A stretch of 20,120 nt of DNA from a virus. Position 1 is the stretch's first letter; every line of letters begins with the position of its first letter. Of this stretch, positions 1 through 19,934 are shown piece after piece. A program made the position numbers and the translations under genes. The DNA lies in IMG/VR virus record IMGVR_UViG_3300001097_000101, positions 1-20,120 of that record, one strand, 5' to 3'. The notes below the pieces were generated by a model, which saw only the letters and a list, made by a program, of their open reading frames with translations, was not told the DNA's origin and ran no database searches.

Positions 1-977
1 AAGGCTTTCTTACCCATAGCAGTTGCTATCGACATCGCTTCAAACCAGGTCAGTGAGCCGAAAGTCGTAGAGCCATTGCCCCCTAGTGTTAAAGGGATAA
101 TAGGTGGACTAGAGCCATCTGCGATTGTTGCGCCGTATTTAGACGTACCATACACATCAGGAGCAGTGTTTAAAAAGTAAATATCTGACCAGAACCCGCC
201 CGCAACCAAAGTCATGCCGCGAGGATCATCACAAGCGGGTCTAAAACTTAAATCCCAGAATGAGTACTCGTTGATTTGCGGTGTAGAGTTTCCGCCTGAC
301 TGAGCAGCAGCATTGCCGCCGGGCGCGTAGTGGAAGCCGCCGATTTTCCGCGCATTAGTTGCAGGCGGTGATGTAAAGCTAGTGGTTGCTTCAAGCGTGC
401 CATCTGTTTTTAGCCATATCGCGTAGTCAGTACCCGTGGTCGCTGTTGGCATCGTGATAGCTGTGCCTGCCGCGATCGTTAATACTGAGCCGCCAGCTGC
501 TGCATAAAACTCTTGGCTCGTGTCTACTGTGAAATTACCTGTCTTTGTGAAAATGACGGCTGATGAATCTGTTTTTTTGAATAAATTAAACGATGCGGCG
601 GACGCAGCACTAAGATTAGTTATTTCTTCCCACTGCACCGAAGGCGGCGCAGTATTAGTAACCACCACCGCCCGGTAATAAGCATCAACAGACCAGACAA
701 TGCGGCCAATCTGATAACTCAAAGGCGAGCCGGTTCCATCATCAGATACAAACTCAGGGTAGCCGTAATCCTGAATCTGTTTCAGGTTGCCGGTGACGTC
801 ATACAGTACGCCATTGTATGGCTGCCGGTCAATATTGCGCCGTGCTGGATTGTCTTTTGCCAGCGCATAATCCGGTGTATATCCAGTCGCATAACTAACG
901 GCAGTACCAGCAGTTTCGTCCGGGACTGCCGTTTTGTCGCCACTTTCCGCAAATGGGTATTTAAAATATTTTGTCAT
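1..977 (-). CDS. Mtd-like receptor-binding tail fibre, 3' end beyond window
   Basis: I translated this by hand from the ATG at 977. It stays open to the left edge, giving 325 complete codons. The start follows the stop TAG of the DUF2612 gene directly, with GGAG 8 nt upstream. Residues 1-~120 (PFAESGDKTAVPD, DRQPYNGVLYDVTGNLKQIQ, SYQIGRIVW) look like the N-terminal baseplate-attachment region common in phage tail fibres. From ~130 on the protein matches BPP-1 Mtd as I remember it: SAVIFTKTGN, AITMPTATTGTDYAIW, ARKIGGFHYAPGGNAAAQ (209-226), INEYSFWDL, DPRGMTLVAGGFWSDIY (251-267), GTSKY and ATIADGSS. In Mtd this part forms a beta domain and the beginning of a C-type lectin fold, whose C-terminal ~45 residues are diversified by a retroelement to change receptor choice. 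That variable part would lie outside the window. The likely role is host-receptor binding at the baseplate. The Mtd relationship rests on recall of the family sequence, not on a search. Confidence 0.9.
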   Translation of the reverse strand, partial: MTKYFKYPFAESGDKTAVPDETAGTAVSYATGYTPDYALAKDNPARRNIDRQPYNGVLYDVTGNLKQIQDYGYPEFVSDDGTGSPLSYQIGRIVWSVDAYYRAVVVTNTAPPSVQWEEITNLSAASAASFNLFKKTDSSAVIFTKTGNFTVDTSQEFYAAAGGSVLTIAAGTAITMPTATTGTDYAIWLKTDGTLEATTSFTSPPATNARKIGGFHYAPGGNAAAQSGGNSTPQINEYSFWDLSFRPACDDPRGMTLVAGGFWSDIYFLNTAPDVYGTSKYGATIADGSSPPIIPLTLGGNGSTTFGSLTWFEAMSIATAMGKKA

Positions 978-1631
978 CTAGATTTCTCCATCGTAAAAAT
1001 TGCCATTGCTAAAGTTTTCAAAACTTTCACCGAAGCCCCATGCGTTTGTGTTTTCATCCAATACCGATCTAATGGCAACGGCAGCTGGGCGCGGTAACAA
1101 GTCTCGTGCTTTTATCTCTCGTATAAAACCGACAAGCTCAGTTGAGCCTATGAGGTATACAAAATTCATGTCCAGCGCGTCGAGACACCTGATCTTACCC
1201 TCGCCAAATATTCGCGCAAGGGAATCATTGATGCTCGGCACCGTGCCACTCATGTGCAAAATATACGCTTTGAGCTTTAGTAATATCCGCTTTTGCTCAA
1301 GAGTGAAATTATAACCCACATCCGAGTTGGTTCCAAATGACCCAAACCCGAAAACCTCGTCATCGCTTGTAAAGCCCCATGACGGATAATCCGCCGGCGA
1401 CGCTTGCGTTATGCCAAACAATGGTTCGTTAAGAATAATCGCCCAGACCGATAATCCAAACTCGTTGGCAGTGTCAAGATTAAAAACATCGACTGTCCAA
1501 TTATTCCAGAAGTCGCAAAAGTTGGCCTCGTACCATGCCTGTTTTTTCTGGATAATCGCTTTTAGAATCGGCGCTTTGCTTCGCTGCCAGTCTAAAGCTT
1601 TTTCTAGATCAACGGTGCACTCGTACGTCAT
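978..1631 (-). CDS. DUF2612 tail/baseplate protein
   Basis: This 217-residue protein has the pattern of the DUF2612 phage family: KAIIQKKQAWYEANFCDFWNNW near residues 25-46, then VFNLDTANEFGLSVWAIIL, and EQKRILLKLKAYILHMSGTVPSIND-type sequence in the middle. DUF2612 proteins occupy the slot that P2 protein I fills, between baseplate J and the tail fibre. They probably complete the baseplate wedge and anchor the fibre. The last ~25 residues are rich in G, F and N (WGFGESFENFSNGNFYDG). The ATG overlaps the stop of the baseplate J gene by 4 nt (ATGA), and its stop directly touches the fibre ATG, so translational coupling is likely. Family assignment is from pattern recognition. The wedge role is inferred from position. 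Confidence 0.8.
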   Translation of the reverse strand: MTYECTVDLEKALDWQRSKAPILKAIIQKKQAWYEANFCDFWNNWTVDVFNLDTANEFGLSVWAIILNEPLFGITQASPADYPSWGFTSDDEVFGFGSFGTNSDVGYNFTLEQKRILLKLKAYILHMSGTVPSINDSLARIFGEGKIRCLDALDMNFVYLIGSTELVGFIREIKARDLLPRPAAVAIRSVLDENTNAWGFGESFENFSNGNFYDGEI

Positions 1632-2824
1632 ACGGAGACCACTACAACGTCAACCTCTAAAAGCGATGCTTTTTCGTATATCTCGTTATCAATCGTGTCG
1701 GTACTGTAAGCTACAGCCCCCGCTGCCTTTGTCGCCAACTCGCATTTGAGAATAAACACATCAGCAAGCTGCGCATTAACGCCCGCTGCTACTTCAAACG
1801 GGCTTGAATCTTCGCCCAGATAAAATCCCAGCTCGCCGTTTATTTCGCCGTTTGCGTATTGCACTGCGGCTTTTTTTATATCGTCAATACTACTTACTGA
1901 TCCGCCCACTCTTGCGGTCACTCTGCAAATTAAAGGCTTGTCAGTTGGACGGTCAAACTGTACCGGTATTGTTTGACCGCTGGACGGCTCAACATAGCTG
2001 ACCGTTACCGCGCCATTAAAGCCGCTGCCACCAGTCCTTGAAGTGAAATAACCCGCTGCAATCTGCGTATCAACGCCGCCGTCTACAGCGACCCACGTTG
2101 AATGTGGCTTAAGCGTTACGCCCTGAATGACCTGCTCTGTGCTTTCAAAGTTTTCAAGAAAGCGAACACCTGCCACGTTTTCTACTTCACTGACGGCGGC
2201 AAGAATTGAGAACGCATTGGATCGTGAATTGCCGCCTAATTCTAAGCGGCGCTGTCGTCTTGCGCTAACGTCGCCCTGTTGAAACTTGCCGGGTACTGCG
2301 GCAGCCGGGTTATTGATTGTCTCCCAGCCCACAACGCCCGTGGAGATTTTTGTGATTGAGCCAATGACGGCGTCAACCGGTCCCGGCACCAGGGCGCGGA
2401 ATGTAGCCGTGGCCAAGCCTGCCGCGCTCAAGGTCACTGATGAAGCAAGCTCCCACAATTCCCTATTATCGTCTTCTGCGTATTGCCCGGCTGGTATTGG
2501 TGTGCCCGGCACACCGGTTAAATCACAGTCGACCGTGGAACGCTCTGCACCGTCACGCGCGGATCCGATAAGCGCGAGATGAGCGTCAAGAAACGTGCCA
2601 GTTGATAGGTTTGGATTCTGCTGATTGGCTAATAATGCGTTATTTCTGGCAACGGATATGCGCGAAGTAACTTCCGCATCTATTAATCTGCCCTCTGCGC
2701 TGGACGGGTCAGGAGCGCCTGACAGACCAAGAGCGCCTATCCATTCCTGTTCGACATCAGATTTTATCTTAGCAGTATCGGGTACGATGGTGCCGTTTTG
2801 TGTGATGTAACTATATGTCGCCAT
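1628..2824 (-). CDS. Baseplate J-like wedge protein
   Basis: The 398-residue product has the layout of the baseplate J/gp47 family (PF04865). An N-terminal segment carries IKSDVEQEWIGALG and SSAEGRLIDAEVTSRIS. A region with STGTFLDAHLALIGSARDGA follows, then a beta-rich PIPAGQY...VPGPVDAV segment. Next comes the typical GKFQQGDVSARRQRRLELGG helix near residues 180-199, and the C-terminal half is beta-rich. Proteins of this family form the wedges that ring the central hub in contractile tails and transmit the contraction signal to the sheath. The start overlaps the end of the gp25-like gene by 14 nt, and the stop overlaps the DUF2612 start by 4 nt. The length is within the usual range for P2-type J proteins in compact baseplates. 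Confidence 0.92.
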   Translation of the reverse strand: MATYSYITQNGTIVPDTAKIKSDVEQEWIGALGLSGAPDPSSAEGRLIDAEVTSRISVARNNALLANQQNPNLSTGTFLDAHLALIGSARDGAERSTVDCDLTGVPGTPIPAGQYAEDDNRELWELASSVTLSAAGLATATFRALVPGPVDAVIGSITKISTGVVGWETINNPAAAVPGKFQQGDVSARRQRRLELGGNSRSNAFSILAAVSEVENVAGVRFLENFESTEQVIQGVTLKPHSTWVAVDGGVDTQIAAGYFTSRTGGSGFNGAVTVSYVEPSSGQTIPVQFDRPTDKPLICRVTARVGGSVSSIDDIKKAAVQYANGEINGELGFYLGEDSSPFEVAAGVNAQLADVFILKCELATKAAGAVAYSTDTIDNEIYEKASLLEVDVVVVSV

Positions 2825-3872: not shown

Positions 3873-4702
3873 TTAATCGGATTCCCTTCGACAATCAGAT
3901 AAAACGGATCAGCCCGGTTTGCTACGTGATAGTCAGATCTGAAAACCACGTACGAGCCGTTGATTGACGGGTTTAAGCTAGACTCAAGGTCGAACTGGCT
4001 TTTCATGGTTGTTACGGGATCGTAAAGCATAGTCACGCGCACACCAGATTCTGTGCTACCGGCTTCAAGCAATCCATTAGTCACGTTGACAATACGCACA
4101 GCTTTGCCGCTAGCCGGTTTGCCCGGATCAGTTACATACATCACGTCGTCATCAACAAAAACTTCCGCGTTTGCCAAGTCTTCCAGCTGGTTTAGCTGCG
4201 ACTGCGCAGAGCCGGCAAACGAATAACTTTTAATATTTTGATCGTCTATCTCAAACGATAGCCCGTACCCGCAGTCAGTGGCTACCCACTGAGCTATGCT
4301 TGACAGCTTTGTCAAGTCGCTACCTGACCGGGTGACAATCGTCCGCTTATTATAAAACCCAGTCTTGCAGATCAATTGTAGACCGGTATCTGGCTTGCCG
4401 ATAATCTGGCTGCGGAATACGTCCCCCCGGTACCGTGTATGCGTCCCGTAGCTTTCCCGCCCCACTTCCAGCACTACCGATATCCGCGTTGCGTTTGGTT
4501 CTAATGGTTTAGTGTTTTGCAGAATAAAGTCGCGAACGTCTTTTTGCAGACCGAGAACAGTTATATCACAGTCGCCCATGCTCGGATTAGCAAATCCACG
4601 CCCTTTGGCTTCTATGTACAGCGGCGAATTTAAACCGCCGTACCATCGAATTTGATCGTTTATGCTGATGCCGAGATTGATTATTCTACGGTCAATTGCC
4701 AT
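3869..4702 (-). CDS. Baseplate hub protein (gp27/gpD-like)
   Basis: The 277-residue product lies between the plug and the spike, which is the slot of the central hub in simple contractile baseplates. Visible segments are an N-terminal strand region (DRRIINLGISIND), a mid-part CDITVLGLQKDVRDFILQNT, then LSSIAQWVATDCGYGLSFEI, which resembles the LysM-like/hub segment of gpD and gp27 relatives, and SQLNQLEDLANAEVFVDDDVMYV. The C-terminal GLLEAGSTESGVRVTMLYDP and SYVVFRSDYHVANRADPFYL are typical of the hub's final beta domain. The protein probably trimerises, docks the spike and forms the channel top for the tape measure. The start overlaps the plug stop by 11 nt. Function is inferred from context and general pattern more than from a diagnostic motif. 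Confidence 0.75.
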   Translation of the reverse strand: MAIDRRIINLGISINDQIRWYGGLNSPLYIEAKGRGFANPSMGDCDITVLGLQKDVRDFILQNTKPLEPNATRISVVLEVGRESYGTHTRYRGDVFRSQIIGKPDTGLQLICKTGFYNKRTIVTRSGSDLTKLSSIAQWVATDCGYGLSFEIDDQNIKSYSFAGSAQSQLNQLEDLANAEVFVDDDVMYVTDPGKPASGKAVRIVNVTNGLLEAGSTESGVRVTMLYDPVTTMKSQFDLESSLNPSINGSYVVFRSDYHVANRADPFYLIVEGNPIK

Positions 4703-9338: not shown

Positions 9339-9523
9339 ATTCGTGCCAATTTCCATGCCGCCAAGGAGGTGACATTTGGAATTCTCGCCGAGTCAGTATA
9401 TTTAGGAAACGCGGTTAAAATGATCGGAGCGCTTTCGGTTGTTTCGCTTGTGGAGATAGTGACGACTGTCTCCAAATGCGAAAAATCTAAATGTGAAATG
9501 TCTGTCATGATTATGTCCTTTAG
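9335..9523 (-). pseudogene. Truncated, diverged duplicate of the tail tube gene start
   Basis: An ORF of 57 codons begins at ATG 9508 with its own AAAGGA site. It reads MTDISHLDFSHLETVVTIS, then APIILTAFPKYTD, then IPNVT, against MTDISHL, VVTISAS, APIPMTAFPKDTD and IPNVT in the real tube gene. About 30 of 43 aligned residues are identical, apart from a 5-codon insert (DFSHL type) that itself repeats the preceding motif. After IPNVT a net 2-nt insertion shifts the frame, so it ends at TAA 9337-9335. In the other frame the homology goes on (MEIGTN) and runs straight into the leader of the real tube gene. It lacks two thirds of the tube protein and is probably a non-functional recombination or duplication scar. 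Confidence 0.75.
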
Positions 9524-11016
9524 ATTAGCACGTGACGGCCCTGGACGCGATCAACAGAATCGCGCTTGGCATAAATAACGGTGTAATCCATGTAATACGT
9601 GGTCACGCCGCTAGTGTCGGTTTCCTGTGCAATGTTCACAACGCGCCACCAGCCTTTGCTCGACACATCACGCCATGCGTTATCATCTGCGGTTATCTGC
9701 GTGATGAATCCGATTTGAGTGGTTGTCAGCTGCTTACCGGTTGCAATAGATCCGTTGAACTTGCCTCGGGCAATGGCTGCGTCAATGTAGCTGTAGCCGA
9801 TAGCCTGTCCAGTTTCGTCTGCCGGAACCTGGTTAAACGCAAGAAACATATTCAAGAACGAGGCTTTAACATCGGCCTTGAACCACTGTTCGTTGGCATA
9901 GACTCCCATCGCCGTTGGTGCCGTTTGTCCGCCCATCAACTGGCCGCGCTGGTAGAAGTCGAGCATCGTTCCAGCTTCTTGCGTAACGCCGTAATAGTTC
10001 ACTCGGATAGCGTCGTACGTGTCTGCCAGTGCGTCGGTGCTAACGGTAGGAACAAGCCTGCCATCACGCTGGTAGTTGTAGTTCGCGCTCGCGGCTGGCT
10101 TGTCCCATTGCTGACTCGCTAAAATCGCGCAAGGTAACAGCCAAGGGTAATCGCCGTTTGCGGAGTCGTACAAAGTAACACCGGTGCCGGTAAAGCCCTT
10201 TAGCGCATCAAAATATGCCTGTGCGTTTTCGCTGCCGACGCGCTGATGGAATTGAAACTCAACGTTTCGAGAGTTGTTCCAGCTCGCGGCTTCCACCACT
10301 TGCGATTCGGTCAGTTCGTCAATAAACGAAAACGAGCCGTAGTTGTTGTTGATCTGAGTAGAGCCAGACACAACATCTGTAATGCTCTGCTCGGTTGCGC
10401 CGTCGCTGATGATAGCCTGACTGCCCCAGCCTAAATCAGCCAGAAGGCCAGCGGTGCCGGAGGTAATATCAAGCGTGCCGTCTGCCGCAACGTTGCTGTC
10501 AAACTCAACCGCTGTGCGGCCAGCGTTATAAACAACAGTCGCTGTTGCCAGTGGTCCGGCTGCGGTCGTCATTGCGGTCTGAATTGCTGTGGCAACATCA
10601 GCGTAAGAAGCTGCGGCGCTAAAGTCCAATGCGGGTACAGCTGTGCTAACGCCGCCGATGATGACGGCAAGAGAGCCAGCGGCGTAGGTCTTTAAAGTGT
10701 CAAGCGCGGCTACTTTAGAGCCAAAAATCTGAGCGCTGGTGTCGCTGTCTGCCCATCGGGCGAACTGAATGTTTTGTGGCTTGGTGATGACTTTAGACAC
10801 AAAGCCAAAGTAATACAAAGCTTGTTTGTATTCTTCGCCATTGCTATCGCCAAAATAATCAAGCACAGCATTATCGTTGCGAAAGTTTACGATACCGCCG
10901 GTCGGCACTAGCTCATTTGTAGTATAAAGCCGGAGCTTTAACTCCCGAGTACCTACCGCTGCTGCGCCGCCTACGCCGGACGTGATGTCGACGTAGCGAT
11001 TGGATGAAATTGGCAT
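9520..11016 (-). CDS. Tail sheath protein (DUF3383 family)
   Basis: The 498-residue product has the pattern of the DUF3383 sheath family: PISSNRYVDITSGVGGAA at the start, FGDSNGEEYKQALYYFGFVS and PQNIQFARW near residues 55-90, FHQRVGSENAQAYFDALKG mid-protein, and a conserved C-terminal domain (NYYGVTQEAGTMLDFYQRGQ, GKFNGSIATGKQLTTTQIGF, ITQITADDNAWRDVSSKGWW) that forms the contractile core. It wraps the tube and shortens on infection. ATG 11016 is chosen because GAGGA lies 9 nt upstream (11030-11026); the in-frame TTG two codons earlier is only 3 nt from that site. Its stop lies 11 nt before the ATG of the duplicated tube fragment. It establishes the myovirus morphology of the phage. Confidence 0.92.
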   Translation of the reverse strand: MPISSNRYVDITSGVGGAAAVGTRELKLRLYTTNELVPTGGIVNFRNDNAVLDYFGDSNGEEYKQALYYFGFVSKVITKPQNIQFARWADSDTSAQIFGSKVAALDTLKTYAAGSLAVIIGGVSTAVPALDFSAAASYADVATAIQTAMTTAAGPLATATVVYNAGRTAVEFDSNVAADGTLDITSGTAGLLADLGWGSQAIISDGATEQSITDVVSGSTQINNNYGSFSFIDELTESQVVEAASWNNSRNVEFQFHQRVGSENAQAYFDALKGFTGTGVTLYDSANGDYPWLLPCAILASQQWDKPAASANYNYQRDGRLVPTVSTDALADTYDAIRVNYYGVTQEAGTMLDFYQRGQLMGGQTAPTAMGVYANEQWFKADVKASFLNMFLAFNQVPADETGQAIGYSYIDAAIARGKFNGSIATGKQLTTTQIGFITQITADDNAWRDVSSKGWWRVVNIAQETDTSGVTTYYMDYTVIYAKRDSVDRVQGRHVLI

Positions 11017-11052
11017 ATTCAAAAATCCTCTAATTAGGGGTTGTGAGGTAAA

Positions 11053-11580
11053 TTATACTCTATTTATTTCTCCTGTCACATCATCAAATAATGAGACAGG
11101 CTTAATGTATTCTGTGTTATAGCTCACGACAATATCAAAGCTCGGCTGTGACTCCCAATTATCGCCTTCATTAACTTCAAACGAGGGGCGCACGTTGCCG
11201 CATTCCTGCACGTCGACGCCCTTGCCCTTGAGCGTCCGAACGCTATCCGGCTGCTGAATCATGTCGTTAACAATCTGCACAAGATCGTGCGCTGGTATGC
11301 TTGCCGCGTCTGTCGGGTCGAAATCAGCCAAGGCGCTTATTTGATAGCTTTTTTGTTTAACGTGGTTTATTTTTAAGTCGTTATCAACGTACTTTCTGCT
11401 CCAGCCAACTTGAGTATTTGAAACCGGCGTGATGAATACTTGATACTTTGCCCTTCGTGCGTTTTGAGCTGTGGGCTGGTTGCTTCTTGACACGATTAGA
11501 TCAGCTGATGCAATGCCGTATATGACAAGCTGTGTTTTGATCTCTGAAATAAGCGCTGCAACGATCTGGCCATCAAGCAT
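11053..11580 (-). CDS. Tail/neck terminator-like protein
   Basis: This 175-residue protein shows an alpha/beta pattern expected of gp12-like neck or tail terminators. An N-terminal helix (LDGQIVAALISEIKTQLVIYG) is followed by strands (AKYQVFITPVSNTQVGWSRK, SYQISALADFDP), a second helix (PAHDLVQIVNDMIQQPDSVRT), strands, and a final beta segment (SQPSFDIVVSYNTEYIKP). Terminators cap the tube-sheath stack and bind the neck. It lies directly upstream of the sheath gene, where the terminator gene normally sits. Its ATG overlaps the stop of the preceding neck gene by 8 nt. Family recognition is moderate and the role is supported mostly by gene order. Confidence 0.62.
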   Translation of the reverse strand: MLDGQIVAALISEIKTQLVIYGIASADLIVSRSNQPTAQNARRAKYQVFITPVSNTQVGWSRKYVDNDLKINHVKQKSYQISALADFDPTDAASIPAHDLVQIVNDMIQQPDSVRTLKGKGVDVQECGNVRPSFEVNEGDNWESQPSFDIVVSYNTEYIKPVSLFDDVTGEINRV

Positions 11581-11953
11581 TGTAAGGCTCCAGCTTTACA
11601 GCCAGTACCTGGTTCCATCCACCCGAGGGTTGCCAGTCGTTTGAAGTTGGCAGCGCCCGCCATAAGTACCCATTGAACACTAGCTGGTCAGCGTTGTTTC
11701 CTCTCGATAGCAGGCGCACAAGTTCAGTGTCGAAAATCTGGATGTACTGTTTATCAAAGTCCAGTCCGTTGCGCTGAATAGATTCCCTGTTCATCGGATA
11801 AATTCCAGCCTGCCGGTCTATCGGGTCTGACCACGAATCGACGTTATAACCCTGATCGTTAGTCGCCGTGCCCAGCCACTCGATGTATTGGTACGCCTGC
11901 CGGCCAATCACTGACTGCGTAACCGATAGCAGATTAAAACCAAAGTTGCTCAC
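11573..11953 (-). CDS. Neck protein, head-closure candidate
   Basis: The 126-residue, mainly beta protein contains SVIGRQAYQYIEWLGTATND, then YNVDSWSDPIDRQAGIYP, then DKQYIQIFDTELVRLLSRGN and a C-terminal LVFNGYLWRALPTSNDW...NQVLAVKLEPY. This resembles small neck proteins that cap the connector (stopper or head-closure type). It lies between the HK97-gp10-like protein and the tail terminator, as expected for a neck component. Its start overlaps the previous stop by 4 nt (ATGA), and its end overlaps the next gene by 8 nt. I cannot name a family with confidence. Confidence 0.5.
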   Translation of the reverse strand: MSNFGFNLLSVTQSVIGRQAYQYIEWLGTATNDQGYNVDSWSDPIDRQAGIYPMNRESIQRNGLDFDKQYIQIFDTELVRLLSRGNNADQLVFNGYLWRALPTSNDWQPSGGWNQVLAVKLEPYNA

Positions 11954-12498
11954 GATGTAACCTCGTGCGTTAGCGTTGCAATCATGTAACCGGTTTCCCT
12001 GAGCGGGTCTTGATTTGCGAAAGGCTCGCCAAGTTCGCCCGCGCCCGTCTTCCCTTCTGCAACAGCTGCGGCAACACTGCCAACAACTTTTCCGCCTATC
12101 TTTACGCCGTCGTTTCTGAGTTTTCTCAGTGCCAGAGTGACGGGAGAAAGCGCAAGGTGATCGCCGCTAACAATCGCGTCTTTAACATCTGCTTCGGCAG
12201 CGAGGCCAACGGTTCTTAGTACGCCTTCATAATCGCCACTGCCGTTTATCCATTGCTTAGCTCTGTCCTCGAACACCGATGACCACTTGTCTTTGTTGTC
12301 AGCAATCGCTGGACGGAAGAAAGGTCTAGCCGGTGCGGTCTTTGATCCAAATTCGTTCAACGCCGCAACGCCTGCAACGGGCGTATTGTCATCGTACTTG
12401 GCACCCTCAAACCAGCCCACTTGCAATTGTTCATTAGCGGCTCTTAGCTTTTCTGCAAGCCCTCGAACATTGCTTGAGTCGATACGAATCGTGGACAA
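11950..12498 (-). CDS. HK97 gp10-like / virion morphogenesis protein
   Basis: The 182-residue protein contains the hallmark VAALNEFGSKTAPARPFFRPAI segment (near residues 43-64) of HK97-gp10 and phage virion morphogenesis families, followed by helices and a C-terminal DPLRETGYMIATLTHEV. In the family, a PxRPF/L element is followed by a terminal L.dTG.m..SI pattern, both seen here. These proteins work at the head-tail joint or in tail completion. The gene directly follows the DUF4054 adaptor and overlaps the next gene by 4 nt. There is no stray motif or truncation; the length is typical for the Gram-negative phage members of the family. Confidence 0.78.
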   Translation of the reverse strand: MSTIRIDSSNVRGLAEKLRAANEQLQVGWFEGAKYDDNTPVAGVAALNEFGSKTAPARPFFRPAIADNKDKWSSVFEDRAKQWINGSGDYEGVLRTVGLAAEADVKDAIVSGDHLALSPVTLALRKLRNDGVKIGGKVVGSVAAAVAEGKTGAGELGEPFANQDPLRETGYMIATLTHEVTS

Positions 12499-12906
12499 TT
12501 AAAACCTCCGGTATGCCTGTAGGGCATTTGTTCCGCCGTAGTAATCGCCGATTGAGTTGATGGATAGCAGGGCTGAAATCTCGTTACCGTAGGGCGTGGT
12601 CGCAAGCCAGAACGAGAAGTTGCTTCGGTTAGGTGGCTCGGCAAAAGACACGTTAACCGGGCCTTCTGTTGCTGACGTTACCAGCCGCCCAGGTTGGCCT
12701 TGCGCAACCTGCGCCGCAATAGCAAGCAAGTGCGCTACCATGAGCTGATAAACGTACTGCCGACAGTCATCGCTAAACGTTAATTGATTGTCTTCGATGT
12801 AACATTTAGCGACAACCATTTTTCCATTCAGCATGGCGTCTGGATACAGTGCAACATCCGCAAAAGCGGGGAACGCTGCACGGAACGAAGCAATATCCAG
12901 ATCCAT
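12499..12906 (-). CDS. DUF4054 head-tail adaptor protein
   Basis: This 135-residue helical protein starts with DIASFRAAFPAFADVALYPD, followed by a helix-rich core (CRQYVYQLMVAHLLAIAAQVA), then GRLVTSATEGPVNVSFAEPP and a C-terminal ATTPYGNEISALL...YYGGTNALQAYRR. This is the textbook layout of DUF4054: F...FP.F.....yp, a long YlMVAHLL helix, and TpYG..y..L near the end. These proteins act as adaptors attached to the portal ring. It lies 3 nt after a hypothetical gene and touches the HK97-gp10-like gene. Family recognition is good; structural role is from family knowledge. Confidence 0.85.
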   Translation of the reverse strand: MDLDIASFRAAFPAFADVALYPDAMLNGKMVVAKCYIEDNQLTFSDDCRQYVYQLMVAHLLAIAAQVAQGQPGRLVTSATEGPVNVSFAEPPNRSNFSFWLATTPYGNEISALLSINSIGDYYGGTNALQAYRRF

Positions 12907-12909
12907 TAT

Positions 12910-13278
12910 TTAGCTCTCTTCTGCGTCAGTGTTCAATCGAACTTCAACGCCTTTCTTACCGGCTTTGTCCTTCAATTCCTTTTCAGTTTTAGGAGATGCT
13001 AAGTCGCGCTTATCGCCGTGAGGCTTGTTCTTGCCCAGAAATCCGCGCTGCATTAATCGCTTGAACGAAGCGTTTTCTTCCAGCGTTTTCAGTTCTTCGG
13101 CGCTCACTTCCGTAGCGACAAACTTCTGAGTCTGGTAATGCTTGTCCGCGACGTTTGCTCCACCTTTAATCAAGATGGCAGAGCTGTAACTGTGGCGCGT
13201 TAATCGTGCGCCTTCTTTCGCCGCTTTGTAGCGAGGGAACGAACGATCATTTGATAGTGTTGAATAAATAGTCGGCAT
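12910..13278 (-). CDS. Hypothetical structural-module protein
   Basis: I do not recognise this 122-residue protein. It begins with a positively charged, beta-leaning part (MPTIYSTLSNDRSFPRYKAA, LTRHSYSSAILIKGGANVAD, YQTQKFVATEVSAEELKTL). The second half is lysine- and glutamate-rich and probably disordered (KNKPHGDKRDLASPKTEKE, LKDKAGKKGVEVRL). Genes at this site, between major capsid and adaptor, often encode small head-associated proteins. It is preceded by the capsid terminator, and there is no good promoter that I can see. The ATG at 13278 has AAGGTAACC upstream as a modest ribosome site. Confidence 0.65.
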   Translation of the reverse strand: MPTIYSTLSNDRSFPRYKAAKEGARLTRHSYSSAILIKGGANVADKHYQTQKFVATEVSAEELKTLEENASFKRLMQRGFLGKNKPHGDKRDLASPKTEKELKDKAGKKGVEVRLNTDAEES

Positions 13279-13298
13279 ATCGGTTACCTTGAATTATC

Positions 13299-13328
13299 AA
13301 AAAAGAATAGGCGGGTGTTACCCCGCCT
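13299..13328 (-). terminator. Intrinsic terminator after the major capsid gene
   Basis: Minus-strand AGGCGGG, a 6-nt loop, CCCGCCT pairs 13322-13328 with 13309-13315. It is followed by ATTC and six T (13304-13299). The T-run is offset 4 nt from the stem, so termination may be partial. It lies within 10 nt of the capsid stop codon. Confidence 0.65.
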
Positions 13329-13336
13329 TGCTTATC

Positions 13337-14464
13337 TTAAGCCCCGGAAGCGCGGTATACCGCATATCCACGCTTAACAAAACAGCCTGCCGAAGCGCTG
13401 GTGTAACCTTCGCTGACGCCTCGCATAGTCTGCACCGTATTTAGTGCAGTCATCTTGCTGGGCACGGCTTGAATAACAGTCTCGCCGCCGTCCGTGCCGC
13501 TACCGTCAACTGTTTCAGGGTAAAGGTAAAACACGTTCTCGCCACCGTCCGCACCGTCGAATTCTGGGATAGCTTCGACTGTGATGTTCGGGTAGTTTTT
13601 GGACAGCCACTCGCTAACAGTCATGCCGTTAGTGAATGAAGAGTCTGATTCGTTCATCAGGTCTTTAACACTTGCAGCAATGGCCAGTTTCAGGCTCATA
13701 GCTTCGGGGTCAACTTGACTTCCCGACTGAGTTCGTAAAGTTGATACCGCAGTAACGATGTCAGCAATGCGCTCAGCAACGGTCTTGCTTGCCCATGTAG
13801 TGTCGGCGCTAACACCGTTTGCCAGAGTCACAAAGGCGGGCAGATTGGGATCGTTTAAGAATCCATAAGTCCGATTAAGTCCGCCATTAAATCCGTAGAA
13901 AAAGATTTCGTTTCGCAGGATTTCAAACGCCAGCGCAACCGCTGCGCGCTTTTCGTCCATTGAATTGAAGCCTGCTTTTGCGCTGCGCTCTTCGTCGAGT
14001 TTGGTCATCTCTGCGCCAAGCTCAAAGCGCACGATGGTCCGGCGTTCGTATGTAGAGTTCCATGCCGAGATCGGAATATCGCCATGGTCTTTGTAAAGAC
14101 CAGGCTGTCCCAAATGCTCGAGAATAGTCAGTACAATCTCTTCGTCAGACCAATCGCCAACAGTCATGACCTGCGCCAACACGTCGCCGCGTCGAGCTGT
14201 GGTCAGAATATGGACAACGCCCTGCAAGAAGTTTTGCAGGAACTGAACCGGTACGCCACCGCTCGCGGTAGTTACGGGCTGAGTCAGCCCGGCGTCCATT
14301 GCAGCAGACAAGGCGTTACGAGCAAAGCCCGTATCCACGCCGATTCCCAAACGGCGCATAGCAACTTGACTGCCTGCCAGCGCTTTAATCTGATCGCCCT
14401 TAAATGTGACGCCGCCCATTTTGCCAGAGGCTCGGATTTTTGTTACGTGGTGAATTTTGCTCAT
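13337..14464 (-). CDS. Major capsid protein (DUF2184 family)
   Basis: The 375-residue protein carries the DUF2184 major-capsid pattern: QFLQNFLQGVVHILTTARRG, RRTIVRFELGAEMTKLDEER, AVALAFEILRNEIFFYGFNG, RTYGFLNDPNLP and a C-terminal RGVSEGYTSASAGCFVKRGYA. DUF2184 proteins adopt the HK97 fold and form the icosahedral shell. Position just after the protease/scaffold and cement genes supports this. The N-terminus (SKIHHVTKIRASGKMGGVTF) is a possible site of protease trimming. GAGAG lies ~9 nt before the ATG. A terminator directly follows the gene, which would raise its mRNA relative to downstream neck genes. Confidence 0.9.
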   Translation of the reverse strand: MSKIHHVTKIRASGKMGGVTFKGDQIKALAGSQVAMRRLGIGVDTGFARNALSAAMDAGLTQPVTTASGGVPVQFLQNFLQGVVHILTTARRGDVLAQVMTVGDWSDEEIVLTILEHLGQPGLYKDHGDIPISAWNSTYERRTIVRFELGAEMTKLDEERSAKAGFNSMDEKRAAVALAFEILRNEIFFYGFNGGLNRTYGFLNDPNLPAFVTLANGVSADTTWASKTVAERIADIVTAVSTLRTQSGSQVDPEAMSLKLAIAASVKDLMNESDSSFTNGMTVSEWLSKNYPNITVEAIPEFDGADGGENVFYLYPETVDGSGTDGGETVIQAVPSKMTALNTVQTMRGVSEGYTSASAGCFVKRGYAVYRASGA

Positions 14465-16183: not shown

Positions 16184-17077
16184 TTAATCTGGATTACCAA
16201 AAGTAATTAGCGGAACCTTGAAGCATTTGCAATTGATGGCTTCCCCCGGCTGCCCCCGCTCACCGGTAGACTGGTCAATTATCGGAGGATCATCAAGGCT
16301 AAACACTTGCCCATTAAGCACGTTTTTGTGATACGGCCTCGGCTCCTGTGACCCGCCAGCATGTCGCCACGTGTATTGTGTTATTCCAACTGAGCGCATA
16401 CGGCTATCTGTAATAGTGCTGTATGCTTTCCTCGTCTGATCAAGAGTGACGTTCTTTGCTTTGTTCTTGTAGCGCTTAAATCGTCCCTGCAACATCTCAT
16501 CAATGGATTTCATTGTGTCCGTAAAATTACCTTTAGGTGACGCAATAGACCGCATTAACGCTTCTTGCACCTCTCCCATGTACTCGCCGCTTATTGACTT
16601 GATCAGGCTGGTGGACTGTTGCGTCCCCGCTGCGATAACGTCCTTTGTCGCGCTGGTGATTGACGAAGAGTTAATGGTAGCGCTGCCGGTCATCTTTTTC
16701 ATCGAGCGACGCATGTCCTCGCCGGTCTGGTCTGATATTTCAGCAAACAGGCTGTCACTAAACTCTTTGGCAAACAGGTTAAATTTCTGCCCCCACTCGC
16801 GCATAAGTCTGTTCGTGAGGATTCGTGCCTGACTGGTGATGGACGCATCCATGGCTATATCTTGGATCGTCTCTTTAGCTAAGGGTGTGTGGAACAGCGC
16901 TTTCACCTGCTTGCTAACGTCAAGATGCATTTTCCTGACCTCGCGCATAGCCGCCGCTGCCTTGCGGTTTGCGTAAATCTCGTTAACACGCAAAGGCTCG
17001 CCCACCAAGTGAGTGTCCCGGTTATTTGCCCAGTCATACTTCTGGCGGGTTAGCTTAACTTTCCGTTTCTTCGCCAT
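16184..17077 (-). CDS. Minor head protein (SPP1 gp7 / Mu gpF-like)
   Basis: From ATG 17077 the product has 297 residues beginning MAKKRKVKLTRQKYDWANN. A longer in-frame start at 17131 would place 18 residues deep within the portal gene; the inner start leaves a 23-nt overlap and is preceded by an AAGAAG-rich purine stretch, so it is preferred with moderate certainty. The N-terminal two thirds are helical. The C-terminal domain carries the PF04233 signature (QYTWRHAGGSQEPRPYHKNV, NGQVFSLDDPP, GERGQPGEAINCKCFKVPL). In the family this protein enters the head with the portal and helps DNA exit. It is located directly after the portal gene as in most family members. Confidence 0.88.
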   Translation of the reverse strand: MAKKRKVKLTRQKYDWANNRDTHLVGEPLRVNEIYANRKAAAAMREVRKMHLDVSKQVKALFHTPLAKETIQDIAMDASITSQARILTNRLMREWGQKFNLFAKEFSDSLFAEISDQTGEDMRRSMKKMTGSATINSSSITSATKDVIAAGTQQSTSLIKSISGEYMGEVQEALMRSIASPKGNFTDTMKSIDEMLQGRFKRYKNKAKNVTLDQTRKAYSTITDSRMRSVGITQYTWRHAGGSQEPRPYHKNVLNGQVFSLDDPPIIDQSTGERGQPGEAINCKCFKVPLITFGNPD

Positions 17078-18506
17078 CGTCTTCTTCTTCGGGCATCTCA
17101 AGAGCATTAAATCCGCTGTTCGGGTCATCAATCAATCGTTGGCGTACTTCAAAGTTATCTATAGCCCGCATCTCATACAGAAGCTGATCAGCCTGGCGGT
17201 TTTTCAGATTGATGTCAGCCACGTCGCCATCACTCATTACACGGAGCGGCAACCACTCTGGATAAATGCTGGCGTCTGGCTCCATCTGTAAATCGGCAGC
17301 GTATGAAGGTATCAGCCTGCGATAATGCGCATCAACTATATCTGTCATCTCGTTAGCTTGCAGCTCTTCCAGTGTCTCTATGCGGTAATCAATATCCGCG
17401 TCACCGGTGCTAAAACCTTGGCTGCCTGTGCCCATTAACTTACTTGCAGGCTCTCCAAAGATTGAGCATACGAGCTGATACTGGCCCATGATAACGGCGT
17501 CAAGGTCTGTTAAGGACGTGTCAAGCTGCCCCATGTCCTCTTCCTTGCCTAATAGCTGAACGCCGTAGTTGTTACGAAACTCCACCAACTTCTGCATGGC
17601 GCGGCCGAACTTTTCAGGCTTTGCGGCCATTTGGTCGAGATCTGCCTTTCTCCAAACTAGACGCTTAGTCATCGCAAGTTGTGGGGCCTCGTTTGCAGTT
17701 CTCTCAGATGCGTACACGCGCTCGAATGCTTTCTGTACCATGCTCACGCCGCCGTATCTATACGTAGGCTTTAGCAGATCTGGCACCATGTCGCCGGTCA
17801 ATATTGCCATGTGGCTTTTGTGAATCTTCTTGCCGTTTACAATCCACCATGTCGGCTCCATGTAAGTGATCGACATAGGATCAATGAGGTCGTCGTTTTT
17901 CAGCTCAGGCGTTAACCGAAGCGCGTCGATCTGTGACATGCCAGCATAGCCGCCACGGCGGAACTCATCGGGGTTGAATGGTTTTGAATAATCAAAATCC
18001 GGGTTAGTGTGTTTGAACAGAATATGCCGAACGCCAAAAATGTTGTTGAACGTGCAGCCTTCGATGATGTTGTTTTTTAACCCAAACTTTCGATCAAGTT
18101 TTTCAATCGATTTGATTTGTTCGGGCGTCAGTTCACCGCCGTCAGCCGCTATGTCATACCACTTGCGCACAGCATCCCGTGGTTTTGACTCGCAGCCTTT
18201 GCGGATTAGCCATTGCTGAGCCATTATGGCCATGGCTGGGTAGCCGATGAATTGTCCGGTGGAAACGTAGTGCGCGAAAATGACAGGGTTAACAGTCCCG
18301 TAGTTAATCGACGATGAGTGGATGGAATCAACGCTGTCCATTGCGTGCCCTTCAACGTGAGGAGCTTCCATTGGTACAGCGTTCTCTTCAATGTACGTCC
18401 GCAGCATGTCCGCAGAGTCCGCGCCCATTCCGTTCATCATGCTGTAAATGTCGGCGGGCGCTTTTGCCTTTCGTACCGGCTTGGCTTTCTTTTTGTTCCA
18501 GAACAT
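17055..18506 (-). CDS. Portal protein (DUF1073 type)
   Basis: The 483-residue protein matches the DUF1073 type of phage portal. It has NPVIFAHYVSTGQFIGYPAM (~73-92), QQWLIRKGCESKPRDAVRKW, GGVSMVQKAFERVYASERTA and the strongly conserved FGEPASKLMGTGSQGFSTGD (near residue 360) followed by DIDYRIETLEELQ. Portals form the dodecameric ring at one capsid vertex through which DNA is pumped. It is between large terminase and minor head protein, as expected. The Pfam family is now associated with Acb1-like anti-CBASS fusions, but there is no additional nuclease domain: the protein ends in an acidic tail (EMPEEEDDGEETES). GAGG lies 5 nt before the ATG. Confidence 0.9.
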   Translation of the reverse strand: MFWNKKKAKPVRKAKAPADIYSMMNGMGADSADMLRTYIEENAVPMEAPHVEGHAMDSVDSIHSSSINYGTVNPVIFAHYVSTGQFIGYPAMAIMAQQWLIRKGCESKPRDAVRKWYDIAADGGELTPEQIKSIEKLDRKFGLKNNIIEGCTFNNIFGVRHILFKHTNPDFDYSKPFNPDEFRRGGYAGMSQIDALRLTPELKNDDLIDPMSITYMEPTWWIVNGKKIHKSHMAILTGDMVPDLLKPTYRYGGVSMVQKAFERVYASERTANEAPQLAMTKRLVWRKADLDQMAAKPEKFGRAMQKLVEFRNNYGVQLLGKEEDMGQLDTSLTDLDAVIMGQYQLVCSIFGEPASKLMGTGSQGFSTGDADIDYRIETLEELQANEMTDIVDAHYRRLIPSYAADLQMEPDASIYPEWLPLRVMSDGDVADINLKNRQADQLLYEMRAIDNFEVRQRLIDDPNSGFNALEMPEEEDDGEETES

Positions 18507-18557: not shown

Positions 18558-19934
18558 CTACCAGTCTAGGTCTAGGAAGCCCGACGCTGTGCTGCTAATT
18601 AAGTGTGGGCAAGCGCCCATAATAAATGCGTCGGCAAGGTTAGGTGACTTGATACCACGCTTCGCCAGTTCAATTTTTGACTCCACCATGTCCAGTCCTT
18701 TTTTGCTGTAGCTATTACGCGGACTGGCCAGCTCGGTCATCAGTCGCTGGATATGCGGCAAGGTTCCGCGCAACGCTATTAGCTCGCTTGTCGGATAGGT
18801 CATGCCCTTGTTGACTGCATTATACGTGTTTCGCAAACGGTCTGATACATCTTGCCATGCTTGCGCCTTTACGTTCTCGAACTTTTGCTTGTTTGTTATT
18901 CCCGGCGCATATTCTCTATCTGGGCTAATGACCGCCCCTCCGGCATTGAATTTATGATAGCCAGAATGTATATCCATTTCCTTCATGGTCGAACCAACGT
19001 GAGCGCCAACACCGATGGAGTCGTACAGCATTCTCCCGTTTCTGACATGAGCCCATGCACGCTTCGTTGATTTTGTCAGCTCATCCGCTGGCGCTTTCCA
19101 TTCGTCTATGTCTTCGCAGATTGCGCCGTCGAACATGGCCGTGGCGTTTTTGTCTTCGCCGCTGTCTGCCACGTCATAGCCAACACACCTTGCTCCAGAT
19201 AGGTCGAGATCAAGCTTTATGTCAGCGTCTATTGCAGCCTCTAGCCATGAGCGTTTTATTACGGCTGAGTCGTCGTCTGTTAGGGGTACGCCAAGGTATA
19301 TATGCTGATACTCGTCTTCGTCTTCTTCGCGCTTGGCCTCTATAACAGCGCGCATTGTGTCGGACAAAAATCCGTTTTCTGTATAGTTTATTAATCGTAT
19401 GCGGGTACTAGGCGGCGGATCAACAACAAAACGCTGATAGATAAAATCTGTCATCAGCTTGGGATTGAAGCTTATCCAAACCTCGCTCCCCTGTTTACGG
19501 ATTGTCGGCTCGAGAATGTCCCACTGGTCTTTAGTGAGATTGTGCGCTTCTTCGATCCATAATATATCAGCGCCCTCAAACGACTTGATCTCGTCTGTGT
19601 TGCGCTCGATGCCGTAGAAAGTAAAGTCTGTCCCGTTAGCATGTCGTATCTCGTTGACTAGAGCGCTGTAGCCTGGCGTCTTAAAGTTTTCTATCTGCAA
19701 ATTAATTAGCGTGTAAACAGAATCTTTGATCTTGTTCTGGAAGCGACGGACGCACAAAAACCGGGTTCGGTACTGAGCTCCGATGGACTGAGCCATGCCC
19801 GCAAATTCCCATGATTTTGAGCTAGAGCGCCCGCCATACAGCACGCGGTTACGAACCTTGATGAAGTTTGCAGCGCATGGATCGCCGTCGAACCAGAAAT
19901 CTTGGAGCGCCGGATTTAGGCTTGCCCTCGCCAT
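18558..19934 (-). CDS. terL: Terminase large subunit
   Basis: This 458-residue packaging motor is full length. The ATPase half shows Walker A VLYGGRSSSKS (31-41), Walker B ADILWIEEAH (122-131) with the catalytic Glu, and the coupling motif WISFNP (153-158). The nuclease half shows D254 in CVGYDVADSGEDKNAT, D305 in RMLYDSIGVG and D435 in NLADAFIMGA, the expected metal-binding Asp triad of the RNase H-like fold. It cuts concatemeric DNA and pumps it through the portal. It starts 1 nt after the stop of the small subunit. The closeness to Terminase_3/Sf6-type enzymes could suggest headful packaging, but the type cannot be decided from the sequence alone. Confidence 0.95.
   Translation of the reverse strand: MARASLNPALQDFWFDGDPCAANFIKVRNRVLYGGRSSSKSWEFAGMAQSIGAQYRTRFLCVRRFQNKIKDSVYTLINLQIENFKTPGYSALVNEIRHANGTDFTFYGIERNTDEIKSFEGADILWIEEAHNLTKDQWDILEPTIRKQGSEVWISFNPKLMTDFIYQRFVVDPPPSTRIRLINYTENGFLSDTMRAVIEAKREEDEDEYQHIYLGVPLTDDDSAVIKRSWLEAAIDADIKLDLDLSGARCVGYDVADSGEDKNATAMFDGAICEDIDEWKAPADELTKSTKRAWAHVRNGRMLYDSIGVGAHVGSTMKEMDIHSGYHKFNAGGAVISPDREYAPGITNKQKFENVKAQAWQDVSDRLRNTYNAVNKGMTYPTSELIALRGTLPHIQRLMTELASPRNSYSKKGLDMVESKIELAKRGIKSPNLADAFIMGACPHLISSTASGFLDLDW

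Follow-up and report, generated by a model that had tools for sequence, protein, structure and literature searches.

The truncated gene at the left edge of the window (the whole 20,120-base stretch of DNA analysed here) is best explained as the tail fibre of an E217/PB1-like contractile phage, in which a baseplate anchor is joined to an Mtd-type head, within a subclade that has often lost the accompanying diversity-generating retroelement (DGR) cassette; we consider this explanation as a whole likely. The protein would act as the receptor-binding fibre of the phage, its N-terminal module would anchor it to the baseplate wedge encoded by the neighbouring gene and the rest would form an Mtd-type head with a C-type-lectin C-terminus ending in a variable repeat (VR). 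A downstream cassette of Avd, template repeat (TR) and reverse transcriptase (RT) would be ancestral to the lineage of the head, because it is widely spread. Should no intact cassette adjoin the gene, the head would most likely be a variant that arose by earlier adenine mutagenesis and has since been frozen.

An anchored fibre with an Mtd-type head

The record is classed as a linear fragment and its end is the left edge of the window. The structural genes are all read from the minus strand, with the terminase rightmost and the fibre leftmost (Table 1).

Table 1. Positions of the fibre gene, its parts and the structural genes in the window
Feature	Position	Strand	Evidence
Fibre ORF, open at left edge	3..977	-	325 aa, no stop before window edge
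Fibre, Mtd-type region (residues 132-325): intermediate domain and start of C-type-lectin domain	3..584	-	phmmer Mtd PDB chains E 6e-58; PF21916; phrog_11262 E 2e-71
Fibre, N-terminal baseplate-anchor module (residues 1-119)	621..977	-	phmmer 9b45 'gp47 Tail fiber' E 1e-6; phrog_26622 and phrog_4900 (tail fibre); tblastn
Baseplate wedge protein (DUF2612), directly upstream of fibre gene	978..1631	-	PF11041 E 3e-32; phmmer 9b45 gp46 'Baseplate wedge 2' and 8env gp45 E 3e-16
Baseplate J-like wedge protein	1628..2824	-	phrog_6 E 2e-34
Contractile tail sheath	9520..11022	-	DUF3383 E 3e-93; phrog_205 E 2e-52; phmmer gp31 (8env, 8fuv) E 3e-90
Major capsid protein	13337..14464	-	PF09950 E 2e-14; phrog_264 E 1e-64
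Portal protein	17055..18506	-	PF06381 E 6e-66
Terminase large subunit	18558..19934	-	PF04466 E 2e-33

Fibre residues 132-324 align to residues 56-251 of Mtd with a single 3-residue gap (phmmer against PDB chains 1yu0-1yu4 and 2iou), and the head is 52% identical to BPP-1 mtd over 193 residues (tblastn). The close and nearly gapless match of ~190 residues reported by the first-pass annotation is thus borne out, and every Mtd motif quoted there is found in the translation. The intermediate domain of Mtd-type receptor-binding proteins was also detected (Pfam PF21916, 'Mtd second domain', E = 3e-16). Mtd has 381 residues, with an annotated VR from about residue 336 (locus L081); the fibre is cut off at the equivalent of Mtd residue ~252, i.e. 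~130 residues short of the C-terminus and ~84 codons short of the VR. Since the gene runs off the record at this point, no part of the VR is visible in the window. Complete close relatives possess a C-terminal C-type-lectin domain ending in a VR, and the unseen C-terminus of the fibre almost certainly has the same form. Part of gene 17 in two records that bear the name Escherichia phage T7 (LR745708.1, 36023-36289; LR745707.1, 36006-36263) is 49-52% similar to the Mtd head region.

Residues 1-119, passed over in the first-pass annotation, constitute a separate module in which phmmer and the phrog profiles detected no Mtd N-terminal domain. As this module matches baseplate-anchored fibres instead of Mtd, the gene is a fusion bearing an Mtd head and not a full-length Mtd. 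It matches gp47, the tail fibre in PDB entry 9b45, at its N-terminus (phmmer), and tblastn relates it to numerous fibres from Pseudomonas phages and from phages of the Wifcevirus type. The wedge gene beside the fibre matches gp46 of 9b45 and gp45 of 8env/8eon, and the sheath matches gp31 of 8env/8fuv (phmmer; Table 1). The PDB entries matched by the fibre, wedge and sheath proteins are those of phage E217 and a PB1-type relative. The order DUF3383 sheath, DUF2612 wedge, anchored fibre is that of E217/PB1-like phages, and the match of the sheath to E217 gp31 confirms the contractile tail proposed earlier.

A sister phage (L082/L091) is collinear with the window at 80-83% nucleotide identity and has the same fused fibre; its contig, IMGVR_UViG_3300039188_000001, likewise ends within the head. 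The search for other carriers of the anchor module returned only this sister phage and three relatives (L083, L123 and L124), on whose available stretch no Mtd head was detected; anchor and head therefore appear exchangeable. The head itself is found at 82-90% identity across tail types: in podovirus-like phages with a T7-type internal virion protein (L002 and L006), in L007, whose tail genes (tape measure, tail tube and NlpC/P60) are siphovirus-like, and in baseplate-J phages (L001 and L005). Judged by this comparison of gene content, the head behaves as a module circulating among podo-, sipho- and myo-type phages. Its presence on the fibre of a contractile phage is well supported and ordinary in kind.

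The DGR cassette among relatives of the fibre

The RT search of the whole 20,120-base record found none, and the side on which an RT is expected is beyond the left edge. An exact 31-mer from that edge identified no overlapping contig in IMG/VR, a search for the missing half with the C-terminal part of the head yielded no further close relative, and bacterial and archaeal genomes, screened for a prophage in a host, gave two weak partial matches only. Relatives, namely 80 loci retrieved from IMG/VR with the fibre, were used as a proxy for the unseen left side. The searches for RT and Avd used models that had Brt and Avd of BPP-1 as seeds; the TR/VR scan recovers the BPP-1 control pair (22 mismatches, 18 of them at template A).

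An Avd-TR-RT cassette adjoins the Mtd-like gene in 43 of the 80 loci (40 with an RT and 3 on contigs that stop in the TR), 16 loci have no cassette, 1 has a relic, 3 have Avd only and the remainder are too short, so that the cassette is present in 43 of ~62 informative relatives. Their TR/VR mismatches are nearly all at template adenines. The whole-record RT search agrees (33/50 in one batch), and cassette-less records of up to 62.8 kb have no RT anywhere on them. Some loci show other arrangements. The 98-kb record L048 has several tandem Mtd-like genes beside a single DGR (10001-13410) and encodes a contractile sheath (PF04984) as well. Repeated Mtd-like sequence in L053 (3138-5982; also in L054, L056 and L058) suggests two tandem fibre genes, with no RT on the record. 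An Avd-like gene and a hairpin lie beside the Mtd gene in L040 (5522-6022) and L055 (6281-6787), where RT was not detected on the record.

Within the subclade of the window (82-90% identity) the picture is different from this 43/80: only one of six informative members (L002) has a cassette, four have none and one has a relic. By tree distance, the nearest loci are L007 (absent), L004 (absent), L002 (DGR), L001 (relic) and L005 (absent), although the placement of the window beside the cassette-less L007 and L004 has moderate support only (81/87 and 83/55). L002, 87% identical, has every part: VR (1048-1167), Avd (1209-1556; PF22296), TR (1565-1684) and RT (1731-2789; PF00078, YMDD), followed by a DUF4376 gene, and 15 of its 17 TR/VR mismatches are at TR adenines. 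In L001, a truncated Avd (PF22296) is joined to the last 40 RT residues (313-352, 85% identical; 4252-4640), the TR and the body of the RT being gone. Deletion scars of the cassette are seen beside the Mtd genes of L004 (4081-4137), L005 (8250-8306) and L006 (1706-1761), where the same downstream gene follows the fibre within ~60 bases and its ATG is preceded by CTTAATCTGGAGGATTAA, the last RT codons of L002. This stretch doubles as the ribosome-binding region of the downstream gene, and selection for a ribosome-binding site may alone account for its retention. In L007 there is neither cassette nor hairpin, and the fibre frame is interrupted. The deletion scars show that the cassette has been lost within the subclade of the window itself, and more than once among these relatives.

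The first-pass annotation had taken homology to Mtd to imply an adjacent DGR. The homology is genuine and the predicted cassette is common just downstream of related genes, but the composition of the nearest relatives and the scars among them show that the one does not entail the other. That the fibre is under active diversification by a complete DGR (VR, Avd, TR and RT) situated within ~2 kb beyond the left edge is plausible, if somewhat short of probable: the same arrangement recurs among the informative relatives at large and in L002, whereas five of the six informative members of the subclade have lost it wholly or in part, the nearest tree neighbours of the window have no cassette and the window itself bears no sign of one.

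The ends of contigs bear on these counts. Twenty-eight relative contigs stop no more than 2.5 kb from the visible part and 9 of them break inside the VR (expected 1.6; p = 1e-5, for a span picked after inspection); 3 further contigs end in the TR. Breaks at the VR fit assembly failure driven by repeats or variation, which suggests that several loci scored as unknown carry a DGR. One of the nine is L003, a member of the subclade of the window; true carriage there may thus exceed one in six. The break in the window falls ~250 bases before the VR and is hence uninformative on the presence of a DGR. In L010 and L114 (IMGVR_UViG_3300005613_000250) one contig end lies inside the VR and the RT is near the other end, a layout that would result from opening a circular map at the VR.

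Variable repeats and hairpins after cassette loss

The VRs of the subclade were compared with the L002 template over 96 aligned positions (25 adenines and 71 others). The VR of L004 differs at 12/25 adenines and 1/71 other positions (p = 9e-8) and that of L005 at 10/25 and 0/71 (p = 3e-7), whereas L001, L006 and L007 show 10, 11 and 6 differences at non-adenine positions. Directly upstream of the VR, L005 and L002 are mismatched at 18 of 60 bases; the match is therefore confined to the VR, as expected from retrohoming. The VRs of L004 and L005 were probably rewritten recently by a template of the L002 type, and those of L001, L006 and L007 look older. The Mtd genes of these members of the subclade were thus DGR targets in the past.

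Guo et al. (PMC3240598) showed that retrohoming benefits from a hairpin that follows the VR and has a GRNA loop. A hairpin with a 4-nt loop follows the VR in 36 of 37 distinct cassette-bearing relatives versus 3 of 12 cassette-less ones (Fisher p = 1e-6, kinship ignored); the ordinary form has a chance rate of ~2% per 62-base piece. All three cassette-less genes that keep it belong to the subclade of the window, whose hairpin is a variant form with two G.A mismatches in the stem (e.g. ACGAGC-GAAA-GCGAGT). The variant is retained in L001, L004, L005 and L006, and in L008 its outer stem is compensated (GTGAGC-GAAA-GCGAAC); since it was defined after inspecting the sequences, it is a lead and not a test. 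Just after the fibre stop codon of L002, L008, L009, L011 and L037, the hairpin is of the variant form, its stem having two G.A mismatches and its loop being GNAA, in place of the usual perfect GC-rich stem.

We regard it as close to an even chance that the cassette of the window's phage was deleted after diversification, so that one variant of the head became fixed and is inherited like an ordinary fibre. The scars and the surviving adenine-biased VR signature in L001, L004, L005 and L006 point in this direction, as do the absence of the hairpin from nine of the 12 cassette-less genes (against one of 37 with a cassette) and its loss from L007. However, nothing of such a loss is visible in the window, and the element has been kept by L002 and possibly by L003.

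The head might also be a target diversified in trans, its VR and hairpin being kept and the DGR supplied by a co-infecting phage or a resident prophage. The deletion junction is common to L004 and L005, but their VRs differ from each other and match the L002 template at 70/71 and 71/71 non-adenine positions; this allows diversification in trans, and the variant hairpin persists in L001, L004, L005 and L006. Between the VR end and the scar, however, L004 and L005 are almost the same, so that recent deletion together with recombination accounts for the pattern equally well. We consider diversification in trans improbable. It is similarly doubtful that the window's phage is one of a guild in which the heads would be written by the DGRs of other phages, with cassette deleted, VR and hairpin kept and diversity restored either in trans or through recombination with relatives that have a cassette. 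These weightings of an adjacent, a deleted and a borrowed element are judgements from the relatives, not measurements.

Homology to Mtd, taken by itself, thus predicts an active DGR poorly: the head module shifts between tail types, and the mutator is often deleted, leaving recognisable scars. The preferred explanation, an anchored Mtd-type head with a cassette prone to loss, makes a question testable, namely whether the mutator is kept only while receptor switching is needed or can be borrowed.

Comparison with known systems

Tropism switching in a contractile morphotype had been put forward as a novelty, which it is not: the antireceptor of the contractile-tailed phages ACA1/ACA2, a relative of the one in VHML, was reported in 2023 to be diversified by a DGR (PMC10612066), and L059 (IMGVR_UViG_3300010965_000492) and L061 (IMGVR_UViG_3300047288_000038) each combine a contractile sheath with a complete Mtd-DGR cassette on one record, their baseplate and other structural proteins being only distantly related to those of the window. 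According to a work cited in PMC10743442, Faecalibacterium myoviruses have mtd-like DGR targets. Burkholderia phage KS5, contractile and with an RT, was dropped as a precedent, its authors judging the RT unlikely to act like Brt (PMC3091744).

Pseudoalteromonas ACA1/ACA2 and Vibrio VHML resemble the arrangement considered here in having a DGR beside the antireceptor of a contractile-tailed phage; they differ in that the tail is P2-like, the antireceptor is only distantly homologous to that of BPP-1, and anchor and antireceptor are separate proteins (PMC10612066), whereas the two are fused in the window's fibre. E217 and the PB1-type phages (Pbunavirus) share with the window a homologous sheath, DUF2612 wedge and fibre N-terminus, with the fibre after the wedge in both, but in the window the distal fibre is replaced by the Mtd-type head. 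In BPP-1, the head is 52% identical and the order target-Avd-TR-RT is the same as in the relative L002; there, however, the Mtd N-terminus stands where the window's fibre has a contractile-baseplate anchor, and the tail is podoviral, while the tail of the window's phage is contractile and the cassette is often deleted in its subclade.
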